Part shown: positions 10,852 through 17,565 of the stretch, piece after piece | Numbering within the stretch: the first letter of the stretch is position 1 | Layout of the letters: every line of letters starts with the position of its first letter | NCBI RefSeq assembly: GCF_937770335.1 | Contig: NZ_CALJHY010000009.1 | Location: 1 to 64,000, forward strand | DNA length: 64,000 bases | Origin: an uncultured Glaciecola sp. | GTDB taxonomy: Bacteria > Pseudomonadota > Gammaproteobacteria > Enterobacterales > Alteromonadaceae | Direction of reading: 5' to 3' | The notes under the pieces: model-generated | What the model saw: only the letters and a program-made list of their open reading frames with translations | Database searches by the model: none | Told to the model about the DNA's origin: nothing | Made by a program: the position numbers and the translations under genes

Positions 10852-11460
10852 TCAGTCAGCATATCCCCACGGCGCTTTTGGGGATTCAATAGGCTTAGTT
10901 AAGTCAAAATCAACTCGAAACTCTCTTCCCTCTCGCACCATTCTATAAGTGAATTTGTCAGGATAAATGAACATTTGCCATGTGTTGCCATTCGATTGGG
11001 GATTGCCGGCTTGGGCAAATAGTTCCTTTGAATACTGGTCTGCTGGAAACGACTGAGCCTGATCATAACCTGCATCAACCGTATGCCCACCATACATGGT
11101 TGATGCATCATCGCTGCCATCTTCATTTCTATGATCATGCTTTAAATTCAATCCGCTCCCCGTTTTGGTAATAATCCACGTACGCGAAGCATCGTTGCCA
11201 AGATGAAATGGAATTTGTAACTGCGTACCTGAACACTTTCTAACATGCATTACTAGTTTGCGCTCAAATGCGGGGCTTGGATCATTGTCAAATACAACTT
11301 TCCCCTCAAATGCCTTACCGCATAGAGCCGCAATGCTATTGAAAAAATTATCATGGGTCGGAATGGAAACTAAAGGAGCTGGCTTGATAACGGTCGCAGC
11401 TAATACAGGGAAGCTAAATGAAAAACTAAAAATAATGGCTATTACGGTGGCTGACTTCAT
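10852..11460 (-). CDS. Secreted protein of unknown function
   Basis: I do not recognise a named domain. The 202-residue product has a clear Sec signal peptide (hydrophobic residues 5-20, likely cut after VLA-A) and a soluble body with two cysteines (near 47 and 75, in IAALCGKAF and VRKCSGTQ) that could form a disulfide. A His/Asp-rich middle (NLKHDHRNEDGSDD) and a C-terminus rich in aromatic and charged residues follow. Similar orphan secreted proteins of about 190-200 residues occur in proteobacteria (recollection, not checked). It lies alone, 130 bp from the S9 peptidase gene on the same strand, with no shared reading signals. Confidence 0.75.
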   Translation of the reverse strand: MKSATVIAIIFSFSFSFPVLAATVIKPAPLVSIPTHDNFFNSIAALCGKAFEGKVVFDNDPSPAFERKLVMHVRKCSGTQLQIPFHLGNDASRTWIITKTGSGLNLKHDHRNEDGSDDASTMYGGHTVDAGYDQAQSFPADQYSKELFAQAGNPQSNGNTWQMFIYPDKFTYRMVREGREFRVDFDLTKPIESPKAPWGYAD

Positions 11461-11597: not shown

Positions 11598-11891
11598 TTA
11601 TGTTGGACTTCTTTCCTTTAATACTTCTCTCATTCGCTGTTGTACAACTTCGACTAACAGATCGGGTTGGAATTTAGAAATGAATCTATTGCAGCCTACT
11701 TTCTGGACCATCGCTTCATTAAAACTGCCGCTTAACGAGGTGTTCAAAGGAGGAACGGTAATCACTTCTCTAACTTTGAATACATTGAGCGCGAAGGTGT
11801 GCCGCGAACCCAATTTAAACAGCAGCAATTCTAGCCGGTTTTCAACCACCAACTGCGTGCGCTGGTCAACTGATGACATTAGATTAGACAT
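11598..11891 (-). pseudogene. cheV: cheV remnant: N-terminus of CheW domain joined to C-terminus of receiver domain
   Basis: The 97-residue frame starts like CheV: residues 20-49 (LELLLFKLGSRHTFALNVFK, then VREVITVPPL) are the beginning of its CheW-like coupling domain. It then jumps to NTSLSGSFNEAMVQKVGCNR followed by FISKFQPDLLVEVVQQRM, which is the last part of a CheV receiver domain. Roughly 200 residues of the usual about 310 are missing, including the phospho-acceptor aspartate, and the frame is kept across the join near 11745. A ribosome site (AGAGAGTG) still precedes the ATG. It is probably a decaying pseudogene; a translated mini-protein is possible but has no complete domain. Confidence 0.8.
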
Positions 11892-12023: not shown

Positions 12024-13508
12024 CTAGGTTAGCGTGCGCGCGTTTCGGTAGGCTCCGATGCTAGGTATTAACGCAATCAAGAATGTAGCTGCTAGCACAG
12101 TAACTAAAACCAACAGAGTGTGTATTGAAAGAATATTTGGACTTAACGATAAGCCATACTCCGCCAGTAACCAGTCATTACTCAAAAAAATTAAGCTCAC
12201 AACCGTCACCACTCCGACAATGCAGGCAGCTAATGCTATGCTGAGCGCCTCCAATTGCAACAACCAGAATACAAAGCTAGGTTTTGCCCCCATGATCCTT
12301 AACACGTTAATTTCAGCCTTACGCTCCCGCAGAGAGGCTAGTAACATCGTACTTAAACCCAACAGAGTGGCAATCAATACTGCGGCTGAAATAATACGCA
12401 AGACGTTTTCAATCGCACCTACCAAACGCCAAAGCTCGCCTAAGGCAACGCCTGGGATGATAGCTGAGAGCGGTTCCAGTTTATCCTGATTTACTTGCCG
12501 TTGGACTTGCAGCACCGCGATGCGTGATTTGAGACCGAGCATAAAGGCCGAGACTTGGGTAGGTTGCATGATCTCGTATTCGAGCAAATCGTGGCTGACT
12601 TGACTCGACAGATCCGCTAACCCGGATTGCTTATCTGAATCAATACTATGGTTATGTTCTTGTTCTTGTTCTTGTTCTTGCTCTTGCTCTTGCTCTTGCT
12701 CTTGCTCTTGCTCTTGCTCTTGCTCTTGCTCTTGCTCTTGCTCATCATGATTATTTTCAGCTTGTGTAGACTTTTTTAAACTAATTTGAGAAACGTTTCG
12801 TTTAGATAAGCTTCTTTGGGGTTGGGTATGAATTGACTCTATCGCATTCAAGCCGACATGTACGCCTTGATCGACTGGTGTGCCCGTAAACCCCAAAATA
12901 CCAACAACGGTGAATGGATGATCCGCATGATGGCTAAAGCTAACTTTACCTACACCATGAGAGATGATGATTTGATCACCCACTTTATAATTCAATTGCT
13001 TGGCTGCGTCCGCACCTAAAACAACATCGAAGTGATTAATTATCGACGCGGATTTTTGATTATTATTCACGGCTTTATTTACCATAGCATTGGTAAAACG
13101 TCCGCCAGCTTCAAAGCTCAATTGACGCTTGTCGCCATAGCGGTAGTGCTCAAAATACGCGTTGGTCGTGCCAATGACGGCGAAACCTTTATGCGAATCA
13201 CCGAGTGAGAGCGGGATCGACCACTCCACCTGTGGATTCGAAACAATACGCTGATAGCTTTCCCAACTCACCGAATTAGCATTGGCCCCCACCCTAAATA
13301 CTGAACTGAGCAATAAATTGATTTGCCCTGTTCGAGCGCCAACAATTAAGTCAACACCAGAGACCGTCCGGTAAAAGCTACTTTTCGCTTCTTTGCGAAT
13401 ATGTTCGATGGACACTAACAAAGAAACGCTGACTAACAAGGCTAGAAACGTCAACAGTACCGACACTTTTCTGTGCAATAGACTCTGTTTGGCGACGCTA
13501 AAGATCAT
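12024..13508 (-). CDS. FtsX/MacB-like ABC transporter permease with Glu-Gln repeat insert
   Basis: A 494-residue inner-membrane protein: one N-terminal helix (about 15-35), a long periplasmic region, and three C-terminal helices of the FtsX core (about 365-390, 415-440, 460-485), the MacB/LolCE topology in which transport acts on periplasmic or membrane-extracted substrates. Inside the periplasmic region, around residues 256-285, is an (EQ)14 run flanked by His/Asp-rich segments (ENNHDEQ and EHNHSID). It overlaps the ATPase gene by 4 bp (ATGA), so the two form one transporter. Permeases of this type with His-rich loops occur in Vibrio zinc-linked (Zrg-like) loci, so a metal role is possible; that is inference. 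Confidence 0.88.
   Translation of the reverse strand: MIFSVAKQSLLHRKVSVLLTFLALLVSVSLLVSIEHIRKEAKSSFYRTVSGVDLIVGARTGQINLLLSSVFRVGANANSVSWESYQRIVSNPQVEWSIPLSLGDSHKGFAVIGTTNAYFEHYRYGDKRQLSFEAGGRFTNAMVNKAVNNNQKSASIINHFDVVLGADAAKQLNYKVGDQIIISHGVGKVSFSHHADHPFTVVGILGFTGTPVDQGVHVGLNAIESIHTQPQRSLSKRNVSQISLKKSTQAENNHDEQEQEQEQEQEQEQEQEQEQEQEQEQEQEHNHSIDSDKQSGLADLSSQVSHDLLEYEIMQPTQVSAFMLGLKSRIAVLQVQRQVNQDKLEPLSAIIPGVALGELWRLVGAIENVLRIISAAVLIATLLGLSTMLLASLRERKAEINVLRIMGAKPSFVFWLLQLEALSIALAACIVGVVTVVSLIFLSNDWLLAEYGLSLSPNILSIHTLLVLVTVLAATFLIALIPSIGAYRNARTLT
12656..12743. repeat. Hexanucleotide tandem repeat (about 14 units) coding poly(Glu-Gln)
   Basis: On the plus strand the unit is GCTCTT (ten copies), preceded by four GTTCTT variants; on the coding strand this reads as alternating Glu-Gln codons. 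Units of 6 bp keep the reading frame, so slippage would change the length of the periplasmic loop without breaking the permease. The diverged GTTCTT copies lie at one end, as in repeats growing from the other end. Confidence 0.95.
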
Positions 13509-14275
13509 TCTTTGCTATCCAGTTGATTTACGAAAGCGGGGCTACCGTTGATATCAGTTAATGATTCAACTCGATTGAAATGACTAGCTAATGACTGGTC
13601 ATGGCTGACAAATATAAGTGCGGCATTTGAACTTGTTGCAGTTTCAATAAGCACATTCATAAAGGCACCTTTAGCTGATGCGTCGAGGGCCGATGTCGGT
13701 TCATCAACAATCAACACATCCGGCTTATTAATTAGTGCTCGAGCTATGGCAACTCGTTGTTGTTGTCCAACGCTCAATTCACCGGCTTTTTGCTGCATGC
13801 AATCAATGGGTAATTGTAACGCTTGCAACATCGAGACGATGCGTTCTTGCTTTGTCTCCTTTTTTGTATAAGTGCTCTCTTGCTCAGCGCTGTTGTTTGC
13901 AAAATGCATTGCTAAGCGAATATTATCGAGCACACTCAAATACGGAATTAGATTAAATTGCTGAAAAACGACACCAATATGTTGAGCTCTGAAGCGGTCT
14001 CTTTTGCTCGGTTTTAGGGCTGTAATATCTGTATTTAATATATTAACCGTGCCTTGCTGCGGTGCTAAAATACCTGAAAGCAAATTTAACAGCGTACTTT
14101 TACCGCACCCAGATGGGCCGTATAAGAATACGTGTTCTGATTTATTTAAATGCCATTTTTTAATATCAATAATAGGCTTGCCGCGAACGTAGGAGAAAGT
14201 AAGAGATTCGACAAGCACAGCAGGCGCTAGTGCAGTCGAAGCGTCCTTATCAGCTTCACCTAATAAATCGCTCAA
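13505..14275 (-). CDS. ABC transporter ATP-binding protein (MacB/LolD class)
   Basis: A 256-residue ATPase with Walker A GPSGCGKSTLL (about residue 54), Q-loop in VVFQQFNLIPYLSVLDNIRL, signature LSVGQQQRVAIARAL, Walker B VLIVDEPTSALD and H-loop VSHD. The sequence is of the LolD/MacB/FtsE class that works with FtsX-type permeases, and the partner permease overlaps its 3' end by 4 bp. Its own start overlaps the stop of the DyP peroxidase gene by 4 bp, so translation of the three is coupled. It energises the transporter at the cytoplasmic face; the substrate is unknown. Confidence 0.94.
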   Translation of the reverse strand: MSDLLGEADKDASTALAPAVLVESLTFSYVRGKPIIDIKKWHLNKSEHVFLYGPSGCGKSTLLNLLSGILAPQQGTVNILNTDITALKPSKRDRFRAQHIGVVFQQFNLIPYLSVLDNIRLAMHFANNSAEQESTYTKKETKQERIVSMLQALQLPIDCMQQKAGELSVGQQQRVAIARALINKPDVLIVDEPTSALDASAKGAFMNVLIETATSSNAALIFVSHDQSLASHFNRVESLTDINGSPAFVNQLDSKE

Positions 14276-15213
14276 AAAGGAACATTCCCATCGTCGTATT
14301 CTTTTGCATGACGTTTAATGAATTGGATTGAAGGTGCAAAGAAAGCGGCTCCGGTTTCAGCGTTTGAATAATCGAGAAGGCGATCATAATGGCCCATCTC
14401 ATCTCCAAAAATACGGCTGTGCAACATGTCCCTAAATGACTTACTGCTATTTGAACAGCTAATAAAGAATAGGCCCTGCACTAACATGTCACCATACGGC
14501 ATACTTTGCTTTAATAAACTAGGATATTCGCCATTAGGGCCGGTTAATTTAGTACGAAAACTATGCGATGAGCGGCCGCTGTCGACTAAAGGTAAATTAT
14601 GCTCTTTTGTTTTACCCATTACGCCTTCTTGTCTGCGCAATGAGAGTGAATTCCATCGATTCATATCATGGCGATAGCGCTGAATGTGCAGGTAACTGCC
14701 ACCTTTGTACTCAGGATCCGTATCGCCAACTACCGCAATATCAAACTTTTTCATCCCTCTTGGGTTGTCTTCACCATCCAGAAAACCGGTTAAATCTCTG
14801 CCATCAAGATACCGAAAAGCACTAACCTGTTCCACGAGTTCCACATGTACACGAAGTAAATCGAGCACTTCAATACCCACAGCGTGGCAGATATCTAGGC
14901 GGTCGGCTCTAATTTGAATAAATAAGTCACAAGGGAGCACTGGTGCACAACGATCGTCGCTTTGCATGTCGGGGAATCCGGCGAGTTCTTGGGGTGAACT
15001 GTGGGGATATATTTCAGACCAGAAACTTGAGCCTATGGCAATGACACCAGACACCATTGCCTCATAGTGTTCATCATCAAAATGCTCAAATAAATCAAGC
15101 AAGCGAGACAACTTCTCACGCATTGCTGGAAAGTCATCGTCGACAACGTTAAACAGCAAATATTGAGCATGCAAATTTGGCTCTGCGCAAATACCCTTTT
15201 GCGGTTGACTCAT
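14272..15213 (-). CDS. Dye-decolorizing (DyP-type) heme peroxidase
   Basis: The 313-residue protein has the DyP ferredoxin-like fold signatures: the GxxDG motif as GFLDGEDNPRG with the catalytic aspartate at D146, the RYRHDMNRWNSL segment, and a late heme-pocket Arg/Phe region (HSFRTKLTG). No signal peptide is visible, so it is cytoplasmic, like the YfeX-type bacterial DyPs. Such enzymes use H2O2 to oxidise dyes, porphyrinogens or unknown physiological substrates. It begins 3 bp after ggt ends and overlaps the ABC ATPase gene by 4 bp. A cytoplasmic peroxidase embedded in a transport operon suggests heme, porphyrin or redox handling; this is inference. Confidence 0.93.
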   Translation of the reverse strand: MSQPQKGICAEPNLHAQYLLFNVVDDDFPAMREKLSRLLDLFEHFDDEHYEAMVSGVIAIGSSFWSEIYPHSSPQELAGFPDMQSDDRCAPVLPCDLFIQIRADRLDICHAVGIEVLDLLRVHVELVEQVSAFRYLDGRDLTGFLDGEDNPRGMKKFDIAVVGDTDPEYKGGSYLHIQRYRHDMNRWNSLSLRRQEGVMGKTKEHNLPLVDSGRSSHSFRTKLTGPNGEYPSLLKQSMPYGDMLVQGLFFISCSNSSKSFRDMLHSRIFGDEMGHYDRLLDYSNAETGAAFFAPSIQFIKRHAKEYDDGNVPF

Positions 15214-15216
15214 TAA

Positions 15217-16923
15217 TTAATATCCTGCGGCTTGACCGTCTTTTCTAGTTTCAGAAGCACCATAGTACACTTTGTTTTTATCGTCTAGCATGATTGCTTG
15301 ATAACCGCCGAAAGCGCCCGATACGTCTTTTATCGTATGCCCTTTTTCAAGTAAATCGCGACGCGTCTTCGCTGAAAAACCAGATTCTAAGCTAATATAT
15401 CCACCGTCGGTCATAATATCTCCCTCGGGTGAGCTAGAGCCAGTATGCAGTATCCGCGGTGCATCACCCGCTTCTTGTAAATTCATACCAAAATCAATCA
15501 TATTGATAATAATTTGAGCATGCATTTGTGGTTGCGTTCCACCACCCATGACACCGAAGCTCATGAGTGGTTTGTTATTACGAGTTACAAAAGCAGGAAT
15601 AATTGTATGAAACGGACGCTTACCCGGTTCTAAAGAATTAAAATGGTCTTTATCAAGCGAGAACATTTCACCGCGATTCTGCAAAACAAACCCTAGATCG
15701 GTTGGGATCATGCCTGATCCCATGCCTCGGTAATTACTTTGAATTAGTGACACCATATTGCCTTCACTGTCAGCAACGGTGAGATAAATGGTATCGCCAT
15801 CATGTTTGCCAGCATCCACCCGCTTTGCGGATACATCAGGAGCAATCAGCTTTTGGCGTTTTTCCGCATATTCCTTGGAAATAAGCCAATCGACCGGAAT
15901 CTGATTAAAGTCAGGGTCAGCATAAAACTTAGCTCTGTCTTCAAATGCGAGTTTTTTGGCTTCAACAAAAGTATGTACAAACTCAGCACTATCTCGTCCC
16001 ATACTTTCAATGTCGTATAACTCCAATACGTTGAGGATTTGCAAAGCTGCAATACCTTGACCATTGGGCGGTAATTCCCACACGTCATAACCACGGTAAT
16101 TGGTCGATACAGGCTCAACCCAATCTGATGTGTGTGACGCCATATCTTGATAACTAAGCAATCCATTTTGGCTTTGCATGAACCCGCTGATGGTGCGCGC
16201 GATATCCCCTTTGTAAAATGCATCGCGCCCGCCAGTTGCTAATTTTTCGTAAGTAGCAGCAAGATTTGGATTCTTGAAAATTTGACCTTTCTTTGGCGTT
16301 TTTCCATTAATGGTAAAGGTTTCCTCGAAACCTGGATAATGCCCGATCCGTTTTTGATTCATTTCAAAATAGTAAGCAATGACTTCTGATACGGGAAACC
16401 CGTTGCGCGCATACCTGATTGAGGGAGCAAGTAGTTCTTGCATCGGCTTTGAGCCAAATCGCTCACTTAACATGAACCAACCATCAACCGCGCCAGGCAC
16501 AGAAACGGGTAATGGGCCAAAAGCTGGGATTTTATCTAAACCCTGCTGAGCAAAATAGTCACGAGTAAGCCCTTTTGGTGATCGTCCTGATGCATTTAAC
16601 CCATACAACTTTTGCGATTTGGCTTCCCAAACAATAGCAAATAAGTCGCCGCCTATTCCGCTACCTGTGGGTTCAACTAAACCTAACATCGCATTTGCCG
16701 CTATGGCTGCATCAATAGCATTACCGCCACTTTTTAATATATCCAAGGCGACTTGAGTAGCCAATGGTTGACTGGTTGCAGCCATACCATTTTGTGCAAT
16801 TACTTCTGAACGACTCGCAAACGTTTCGCCTGTTATGCGGTCATATGCACTAGCATGGCCGGCAGGCAACGTTATTGAAATACTAGAAAACAGAACAAGG
16901 GTTGATTTGATCGACTTAAGCAT
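15217..16923 (-). CDS. ggt: Gamma-glutamyltransferase
   Basis: A periplasmic N-terminal-nucleophile hydrolase that removes or transfers the gamma-glutamyl group of glutathione and related peptides. A signal peptide (cut near AGHASA) is followed by the large subunit; autocleavage should occur before T378 in the segment GDTIYLTVAD, producing the catalytic small subunit, and the late MGGGTQPQMHAQ glycine loop is the oxyanion region. Length 568 is normal. It is the first gene of a four-gene set (ggt, DyP, ABC ATPase, permease) with a 3-bp gap and two 4-bp overlaps. AAGAGTG precedes the ATG. Confidence 0.95.
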   Translation of the reverse strand: MLKSIKSTLVLFSSISITLPAGHASAYDRITGETFASRSEVIAQNGMAATSQPLATQVALDILKSGGNAIDAAIAANAMLGLVEPTGSGIGGDLFAIVWEAKSQKLYGLNASGRSPKGLTRDYFAQQGLDKIPAFGPLPVSVPGAVDGWFMLSERFGSKPMQELLAPSIRYARNGFPVSEVIAYYFEMNQKRIGHYPGFEETFTINGKTPKKGQIFKNPNLAATYEKLATGGRDAFYKGDIARTISGFMQSQNGLLSYQDMASHTSDWVEPVSTNYRGYDVWELPPNGQGIAALQILNVLELYDIESMGRDSAEFVHTFVEAKKLAFEDRAKFYADPDFNQIPVDWLISKEYAEKRQKLIAPDVSAKRVDAGKHDGDTIYLTVADSEGNMVSLIQSNYRGMGSGMIPTDLGFVLQNRGEMFSLDKDHFNSLEPGKRPFHTIIPAFVTRNNKPLMSFGVMGGGTQPQMHAQIIINMIDFGMNLQEAGDAPRILHTGSSSPEGDIMTDGGYISLESGFSAKTRRDLLEKGHTIKDVSGAFGGYQAIMLDDKNKVYYGASETRKDGQAAGY

Positions 16924-17079: not shown

Positions 17080-17565
17080 TTGCTTTCACGAGTTAGTATT
17101 TCAATTTTATTTGTTTCGTCCTTTTTTCTATCTGCATGCTCAAGTATGCCTAGCAAAGATATGCGTGAGAACGCTCAATTTACCAAAGAAATCCTGAGCG
17201 ATGGGTCTAAACAATTTTTGCTTTCAATATCCCATCGACCAGAATTTAAAGGCAAACTTAATCACCAAGCTGAACGCGAACACAGGGATGTCCCCATAGA
17301 TCGCGAACGAGGCAGAGAGCCGCAAGGTGGTAGCGACCGAAGAGGCAAAGCAAAGTCCTATCAAACAGATTCTGCTTCTGTATCAGGCCTGAATAGAAAC
17401 AAACGAAAGATGGTCATTTATTTGGTCGAAAGTAAACTTGCAGAATCGGGCTATTGTAGAAAAGGTTACTTTGAATTGGCATACTCGCAATTATTACAAG
17501 AAACCGAATTCAAAGGAGAGTGCCAAGAAAGTGCATCAGCTGAAGATACAAAGCGCTGGGGCTAA
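17080..17565 (+). CDS. Small putative lipoprotein, function unknown
   Basis: The 161-residue product begins with a lipoprotein signal (MLSRVSISILFVSSFFLSAC, lipobox LSAC with Cys at 20). The mature part is strongly charged: a low-complexity Arg/Glu/Gly stretch (DRERGREPQGGSDRRGK, about 94-110) and a conserved-looking C-terminal third with two cysteines (SGYCRKGYFEL, FKGECQES). The start is TTG, since no ATG or GTG lies before the signal sequence, which makes translation probably weak. It is divergent from ggt, 156 bp away. I do not recognise the family; the lipobox is the main reason to call it real. Confidence 0.7.
   Translation: MLSRVSISILFVSSFFLSACSSMPSKDMRENAQFTKEILSDGSKQFLLSISHRPEFKGKLNHQAEREHRDVPIDRERGREPQGGSDRRGKAKSYQTDSASVSGLNRNKRKMVIYLVESKLAESGYCRKGYFELAYSQLLQETEFKGECQESASAEDTKRWG

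Follow-up and report, generated by a model that had tools for sequence, protein, structure and literature searches.

Why should the genes for a gamma-glutamyltransferase (GGT), a dye-decolorizing peroxidase (DyP), an ATP-binding cassette (ABC) ATPase, and an FtsX-like permease adjoin one another in the genome of an uncultured Glaciecola sp.? These four genes all lie on the minus strand, at positions 12024–16923 of the window, i.e., the whole 64,000-nucleotide stretch of contig NZ_CALJHY010000009.1 that was analysed. The original prediction had described them as an unusual set joined into a single pathway, in which a glutathione-type or gamma-glutamyl substrate is linked with peroxide and heme chemistry and with transport across the inner membrane. 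The four adjoining genes that it reported, with 3 bp between the first two and 4-bp overlaps at the other two junctions, were borne out by the coordinates, junctions, and Pfam matches, and the set is indeed non-standard. The single glutathione–peroxide–heme pathway was not supported, given that the permease gene lies near dyp in 4 of 118 family genomes and that residues of both the GGT and the DyP are altered. The four genes are instead a new arrangement of known families, and we consider it rather probable (roughly 0.6) that this arrangement was assembled in two steps, in which a widespread ggt–dyp pair gained an ATPase–permease pair of the Zrg lineage within the window's genus. The features concerned are listed here in the order of the operon.

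15217–16923, minus strand: ggt, encoding a GGT-superfamily N-terminal nucleophile (Ntn) hydrolase of 568 amino acids (Pfam G_glu_transpept, 534 bits)
14272–15213, minus strand: dyp, encoding a class-B DyP-fold protein of 313 amino acids (Pfam Dyp_perox N and C domains)
14509–14511, minus strand: codon of Lys235 in dyp, at the distal-arginine position according to the alignment to solved DyPs
13505–14275, minus strand: ABC ATPase gene, ZrgC-like (Pfam ABC_tran; Walker A GPSGCGKS, signature LSVGQQQR, and Walker B; TTG start)
12024–13508, minus strand: permease gene, ZrgB-like and of the MacB/FtsX type (Pfam MacB_PCD and FtsX)
12658–12743, minus strand: hexanucleotide repeat inside the permease gene (TCTTGC on the plus strand, 14.3 copies), encoding a Glu-Gln run

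The ggt–dyp pair and the linkage of the transporter

Comparisons were made within 118 genomes of the window's family, its own genome included, and within 80 named loci, which were the best of 109 relatives from a DyP alignment search; a ggt was counted as close at ≥59% identity. GTDB places the window genome in one genus with Glaciecola pallidula DSM 14239, and this genus also includes genomes labelled Agaribacter and Ningiella at NCBI (identical proteins). The nearest named relatives were G. pallidula (genome G088, locus L082) and Glaciecola sp. 33A (G353, L083), with a DyP identity of 94%. Two further genomes that recur below are a metagenome-assembled genome (MAG; G356, L084) and Glaciecola sp. 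KUL10 (G354, L087).

DyP matches were present in all 118 family genomes, permease matches in 85, and a close ggt in 61. The ggt gene lay directly before dyp in 30 of these genomes, corresponding to 30 of the 61 with a close ggt, and among the best 80 named loci it adjoined dyp in 69, lay within 2.5 kb in four, and was not found there in seven. The usual neighbourhood was glnK–amtB–ggt–dyp followed by the convergent hemL–argF, without the ABC pair; other family genomes had amtB–dyp without ggt, followed by a gene on the opposite strand (argR in G030, the one checked). At the order level, a ggt orthologue was found in 37 of 247 genomes. When 30 ggt loci were inspected with 1.5-kb flanks, DyP adjoined in 11, four of which came from a second, Shewanella-like family (f6; L273, L274, L276, and L277). 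The DyP of L276 (genome G346), which adjoins ggt, was near-identical to Shewanella oneidensis SO_0740 (PDB 2hag), matching it almost throughout.

The permease gene was located ≤10 kb from dyp in four family genomes (4 of the 85 with a permease), all of them from the window's genus, and the ABC pair followed dyp in four of the best 80 named loci (L082, L083, L084, and L087), three of whose genomes are outside the 118-genome sample. Because the ggt–dyp pair spans two families and the ABC linkage is confined to the window's genus, ggt–dyp is an old unit and the transporter pair a late addition. The original prediction had proposed that the gene order in relatives would tell whether the adjacency is incidental; by that measure the transporter is not a regular neighbour of dyp, whereas ggt–dyp is a conserved pair. 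A literature search limited to papers outside subscription yielded none that joins gamma-glutamyltranspeptidase, dye-decolorizing peroxidase, and operon, nor one that joins DyP, gamma-glutamyl, Shewanella, and operon.

Within the window's genus, the permease was present in all 13 genomes, beside dyp in seven and as a copy elsewhere in seven, with both kinds in G. pallidula. The distribution was near-complementary, with 12 of the 13 genomes holding one kind of copy only. The copies elsewhere adjoined DUF3299 in G. pallidula, G349, G350 (one of two copies), G352, and G355, and the copy in G351 was on a contig too short to show its neighbours. The DyP-linked permeases formed one clade in a 30-row tree (support 100/98) and diverged down to 47% identity. 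In KUL10, a zrg-like cluster (L308; DUF1826 and two DUF3299 genes) was found without the ABC pair, and the sole permease copy was behind dyp. Taken together, the near-complementary copies, the single DyP-linked clade, and the KUL10 cluster suggest that the ABC pair was relocated and replaced within the genus.

The junctions of the operon are tight, with a 3-bp gap between ggt and dyp and 4-bp overlaps between dyp and the ATPase gene (TTGA) and between the ATPase and permease genes (ATGA). Both overlaps recur in G002, G. pallidula, G116, sp. 33A, and the MAG, i.e., in six genomes including that of the window, which indicates that they are more than chance; in KUL10, the dyp–ATPase gap is 71 bp and the ATPase/permease overlap 1 bp. 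We infer that the four genes are co-transcribed and co-translated. A promoter/terminator scan gave no excess over shuffles (10 vs. 12.1 and 3 vs. 5.4). Between the window and G. pallidula, omega (dN/dS) was 0.038 for ggt, 0.026 for dyp, 0.126 for the ATPase gene, and 0.066 for the permease gene, and dN (nonsynonymous substitutions per site) was 0.110 for the ATPase gene, 0.087 for the permease gene, and 0.032 for both ggt and dyp. All four genes are constrained, the transporter genes the least.

Other genes were also observed beside ggt or dyp. In the Paraglaciecola loci L137, L140, and L147, a 291-amino-acid gene lies between ggt and dyp, and its product in L137 is an M48-family peptidase. 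In G018, G020, G022, G029, G064, and G073 (e.g., loci L217 and L241), the ATPase gene of another ABC operon directly precedes dyp. In L217 this operon consists of a solute-binding protein, a permease, and an ATPase and resembles an Fbp-type iron importer; these components were identified by a Pfam check in one genome, G022. In the Shewanella-like loci L273, L276, and L277, an ATPase gene is located upstream of ggt–dyp.

The ATPase–permease pair and its zinc context

The transporter had originally been called MacB-like, and this was supported by the Pfam MacB_PCD and FtsX domains and by the structural match. The permease model (mean predicted local distance difference test score, pLDDT, 75; predicted template-modeling score, pTM, 0.61) showed four long predicted helices, the first two of them separated by a large domain, and its best match in the PDB was MacB (TM-score 0.49). 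The separation of the ATPase from a four-transmembrane (4-TM), MacB-like permease, as judged from Pfam and the model, is the split-ABC organization of the Zrg system. In Vibrio cholerae, ZrgB is a predicted 4-TM, MacB-like protein and ZrgA is required for zinc import by the Zrg system (PMC9820375). The Pseudomonas aeruginosa pair PA4064–PA4065 is a predicted split MacB that has been tied to pyochelin–cobalt export (PMC11481552). Like ZrgB–ZrgC and PA4065–PA4064, the window has a separate ATPase and a four-helix permease with a large periplasmic domain, a likeness set by family, context, and published descriptions.

The same permease family adjoins DUF3299, CobW, and ZrgA genes elsewhere in several relatives. 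The zrgA gene (PF10986) was found in 41 of the 118 family genomes, and in 30 of those 41 the permease gene was ≤15 kb away. Of 28 distinct other loci, six (L007, L018, and L019, which are from one genus, and L022, L028, and L067) had a Zur-like box with ≤2 mismatches in the 400 bp preceding the ATPase gene, each of which was matched in ≤2 of 200 single-base shuffles. Relatives of the window pair are like ZrgBC in adjoining zrgA, DUF3299, or CobW, and a Zur-like box precedes some of them, whereas the window pair itself is unlike ZrgBC in that it sits after ggt–dyp, has no adjoining zrgA or DUF3299 and no Zur-like box, and carries the Glu-Gln run in its loop. The search that was positive in 41 family genomes did not find zrgA in the window's genome, and no DUF3299 (zrgE-type) gene stands beside the pair, the one such gene of this genome being located at C9:100375, >80 kb off. 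Upstream of ggt, a Zur-like box was found in none of the five DyP-linked loci tested, and the best Zur-box match upstream of ggt in the window has 5 mismatches in 14 scored positions. A scan of the window's own genome with the Zur consensus (≤3 mismatches) gave 889 and 890 matches per strand, vs. 1236 and 1273 for a control pattern. A plasmid search for an annotated permease relative returned only generic names among the best 15 of 99 matches.

A metal link is plausible for the transporter because its kin adjoin zinc-system genes, and this part of the metal connection in the original prediction stands; the part that rested on the Glu-Gln run does not, as the run is a poor metal ligand. The run was located at approximately permease residues 256–284, and the window's loop, cut by script at 91 residues, contains 4 His and 22 Gln. 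Loops with at least five His were found in 18 of 21 parsable permease rows, the exceptions being the window (4), G053 (1), and G078 (1). Within the window's clade, the loop had 5 His in sp. 33A, 6 in G. pallidula, 6 in G002, 8 in the MAG, and 19 in G116, and these relatives carry Asp-Glu-His or Glu-His repeats at the place of the window's Glu-Gln. The Glu-Gln run lengthens the loop without adding His, and the His total of the window is slightly below that of its closest kin. Of the His- and Glu-Gln-rich metal-binding loop that had been predicted, the run is thus real and four His are kept, while Glu-Gln would bind metal poorly.

The two enzymes and the flanking genes

The ggt product scored 413.8 bits against TIGR00066 (cut-off, 357.85), and its N-terminus appeared signal-like by eye. 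The nucleophile Thr378 aligned with the first residue of the small chains 5hft_B and 4ott_B. The residues Arg114, Asp433, and Ser462-Ser463 of the E. coli enzyme correspond to Ser112, Met420, and His439-Thr440 in the window GGT. Its best PDB matches were the B. halodurans 'cephalosporin acylase' (2nlz and 2i3o) and kin of the GtGGT/TaGGT/YwrD type. The window GGT shares with these GGTs the changes of Arg to Ser and of Ser-Ser to His-Thr, which are described as typical of extremophile GGTs (PMC8062742), but differs from them in its Alteromonadaceae origin and its linkage to dyp. According to the same source, single changes at these sites can leave or raise activity, and changes of the Asp mainly remove transpeptidation (PMC8062742). 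Since activity persists in some enzymes after single changes at these sites, the window GGT may be capable of hydrolysing gamma-glutamyl compounds. Glutathione as its substrate is not indicated by the sequence, and the 'glutathione-type substrate' proposed earlier finds no support in a site where Ser, Met, and His-Thr take the places of Arg114, Asp433, and Ser462-Ser463.

The dyp product scored 175.9 bits against TIGR01413 (cut-off, 100.5) and had no signal peptide by eye. Its model (mean pLDDT 90.5) was closest in the PDB to S. oneidensis TyrA/SO_0740 (2hag and 2iiz; E 1.1e-85, TM 0.93, 42% identity). The heme-ligand His217 and the distal Asp146 of the GXXDG motif are present, and the distal Arg is replaced by Lys235; Asp146 and Lys235 align with Asp153 and Arg244 of RjDypB in the alignment of solved structures, two positions for which variants are named in PDB titles. 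SO_0740 has GFVDGTEN and the distal Arg (ILRQSMPYG), whereas the window DyP has GFLDGED and Lys (LLKQSMPYG). The same fold, heme-ligand His, and distal Asp position are found in R. jostii DypB (3qnr) and the K. pneumoniae DyP (KpDyP; 6fkt, the R232A variant), the difference again being the replacement of the distal Arg by Lys in the window.

Across the 118 family DyPs, the heme-ligand His was present in all 118; 38 had lost the distal Arg, 37 the Asp, and 24 both. On a quick DyP tree with many weak branches, the minimum numbers of changes were at least 11 for the Arg and at least 13 for the Asp. In the window's genus, the seven genomes with the ABC pair all had Lys at the distal-Arg position (six with Asp, one with Val) and the six without the pair all had Asn, a split that may reflect one event. 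Two candidate associations were discarded. Specificity of Lys235 to the transporter linkage was ruled out by the loci titled Alteromonas among the best 80, of which 29 of 34 had Tyr/Lys without the ABC pair. Intact Asp and Arg were found in 8 of 30 ggt-linked vs. 59 of 88 unlinked DyPs (Fisher p 2e-4, kinship ignored); however, the tree contained only two independent supported pairs, which showed nothing, and the proposal that ggt linkage drives the loss of distal residues was rejected. Such losses also occurred in 29 of the 88 unlinked DyPs.

In KpDyP, the Asp deprotonates the peroxide, and the distal cavity collapsed in the R232A variant, whereas the D143A/R232A double variant was near wild-type in structure (PMC6153280), so the loss of both distal residues need not ruin the pocket. 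Chlorite-dismutase-like proteins of the same fold that lack the distal Arg proved to be coproheme decarboxylases, and in true chlorite dismutases this Arg matters, though it is not wholly indispensable (PMC7611857). With the distal Arg absent and the coproheme decarboxylases as a precedent, the name 'peroxidase' appears unsafe for the window DyP. The 'peroxide chemistry' of the original prediction is therefore doubtful, although Lys235 might partly stand in for the distal Arg. Among papers outside subscription, the titles and abstract openings retrieved for GXXDG non-conservation or for Alteromonas DyP contained no report of distal-residue loss.

Several genes flank the operon. A 97-amino-acid open reading frame (ORF) at 11598–11891 on the minus strand matches, by eye, both ends of CheV, which is 318–319 amino acids long at the same place in L062 and L063 and has CheW and response-regulator domains in L062; the window copy has apparently lost the greater part of these two domains through an in-frame internal deletion. 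At 10852–11460 (minus strand) lies the gene for a 202-amino-acid protein with no Pfam or NCBIfam match, which close relatives also carry downstream of the operon, 77–81% conserved. On the plus strand, a 161-amino-acid lipoprotein-like ORF at 17080–17565, also without a Pfam or NCBIfam match, lies between ggt and xthA and has no counterpart between these two genes in G. pallidula and sp. 33A.

Explanations of the four-gene set

If the set was assembled in two steps as proposed, the ABC pair would fill the role of ZrgBC, with transcription reaching it from the side of ggt and not from a promoter of its own. An ATPase dimer would hydrolyse ATP in the cytoplasm and drive a dimer of four-helix permeases by mechanotransmission, a mode of action that we infer from the family. 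The transporter would move or free a zinc-related cargo, either zinc, as suggested for V. cholerae, or a metal–chelator complex, as suggested for PA4064–PA4065. The GGT homologue would be a periplasmic, self-processed amide hydrolase, and the DyP homologue a heme protein of the cytoplasm whose distal pocket is altered and whose peroxidase activity is probably weak. Several observations weigh against this assembly and its zinc context. The permease copies of G053 and the second copy of G350 adjoin neither dyp nor DUF3299, and the permease tree contained 30 selected rows of 92 permease places. The GGT and DyP trees are compatible with carriers in one clade or in several, and so with one gain or a gain followed by losses. 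A Zur-like box occurred in only 6 of the 28 other loci, and a single genus accounts for three of these; Zur control is thus not general across the loci sampled, and the lack of a box upstream of ggt weighs little. Moreover, 11 of the 41 zrgA genomes had no permease near zrgA. The window's genome lacks zrgA, which is needed for zinc import in V. cholerae (PMC9820375), and the cargo may therefore differ. The permease model itself is middling in quality (mean pLDDT 75, pTM 0.61; TM 0.49 to MacB).

The narrow distribution of the linkage would also fit an incidental adjacency, in which an operon that was already expressed received the ABC pair at its end and the pair was kept for its own (zinc) reasons, with no functional tie to ggt–dyp. 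The divergence of the ATPase and permease is approximately threefold that of ggt and dyp, and the Zrg family is linked to zinc elsewhere (PMC9820375, PMC11481552). Nevertheless, the linkage has been kept in 7 of 13 genus genomes while the permeases diverged down to 47% identity, and the overlaps have been kept in six, so we regard this explanation as possible but unlikely. The conserved overlaps are also what would be expected of one pathway, in which a periplasmic GGT would trim a gamma-glutamyl or related metallophore or metabolite, the DyP-like protein would handle its metal or heme complex inside the cell, and the MacB-like pair would export or traffic it. The retention of ggt–dyp together in two families is consistent with this, as are the reported export of pyochelin–cobalt by the P. 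aeruginosa homologue pair (PMC11481552) and the recurrence of transporters by the pair, with an ATPase gene preceding dyp in six further genomes of the family and ggt–dyp in L273, L276, and L277. Such a pathway nonetheless seems quite unlikely, as the transporter linkage is limited to one genus, 81 of the 85 family genomes with a permease have none ≤10 kb from dyp, and the window showed no evident metabolite gene cluster, although no search was aimed at one. That the permease is an HrtBA-type exporter of heme, working with a DyP that handles heme, is highly improbable. HrtBA did occur among the MacB/LolCDE-fold matches, at ranks 25, 27, 28, and 31, and the DyP binds heme by homology, but the best matches were MacB and LolCDE, the domain is MacB_PCD, and the kin of the permease are often in zinc-gene contexts.

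A wider proposal concerns the DyPs of the whole family, many of which, including ggt-linked ones, would be heme or porphyrin proteins removed from peroxidase chemistry, as counterparts of the coproheme decarboxylases, and would in part of the window's genus be coupled to a zinc-type MacB transporter and a periplasmic hydrolase that move a metal complex. We consider this rather unlikely as a whole. It builds on the repeated loss of the distal Arg and Asp, with recurring replacement pairs, beside a heme-ligand His that never varies; the altered dyp of the window's group is under strong purifying selection (omega 0.026). Such repeated removal of the peroxide-cleaving residues with the heme ligand unchanged would offer a direct handle on the altered DyPs. 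For the transporter, the role of ZrgBC is disputed in print, between zinc import and metallophore export. With the two-step assembly, the window pair would be a natural Zrg-type transporter away from both zrgA and the Zur-like box, and would help in asking what ZrgBC does without the binding protein.

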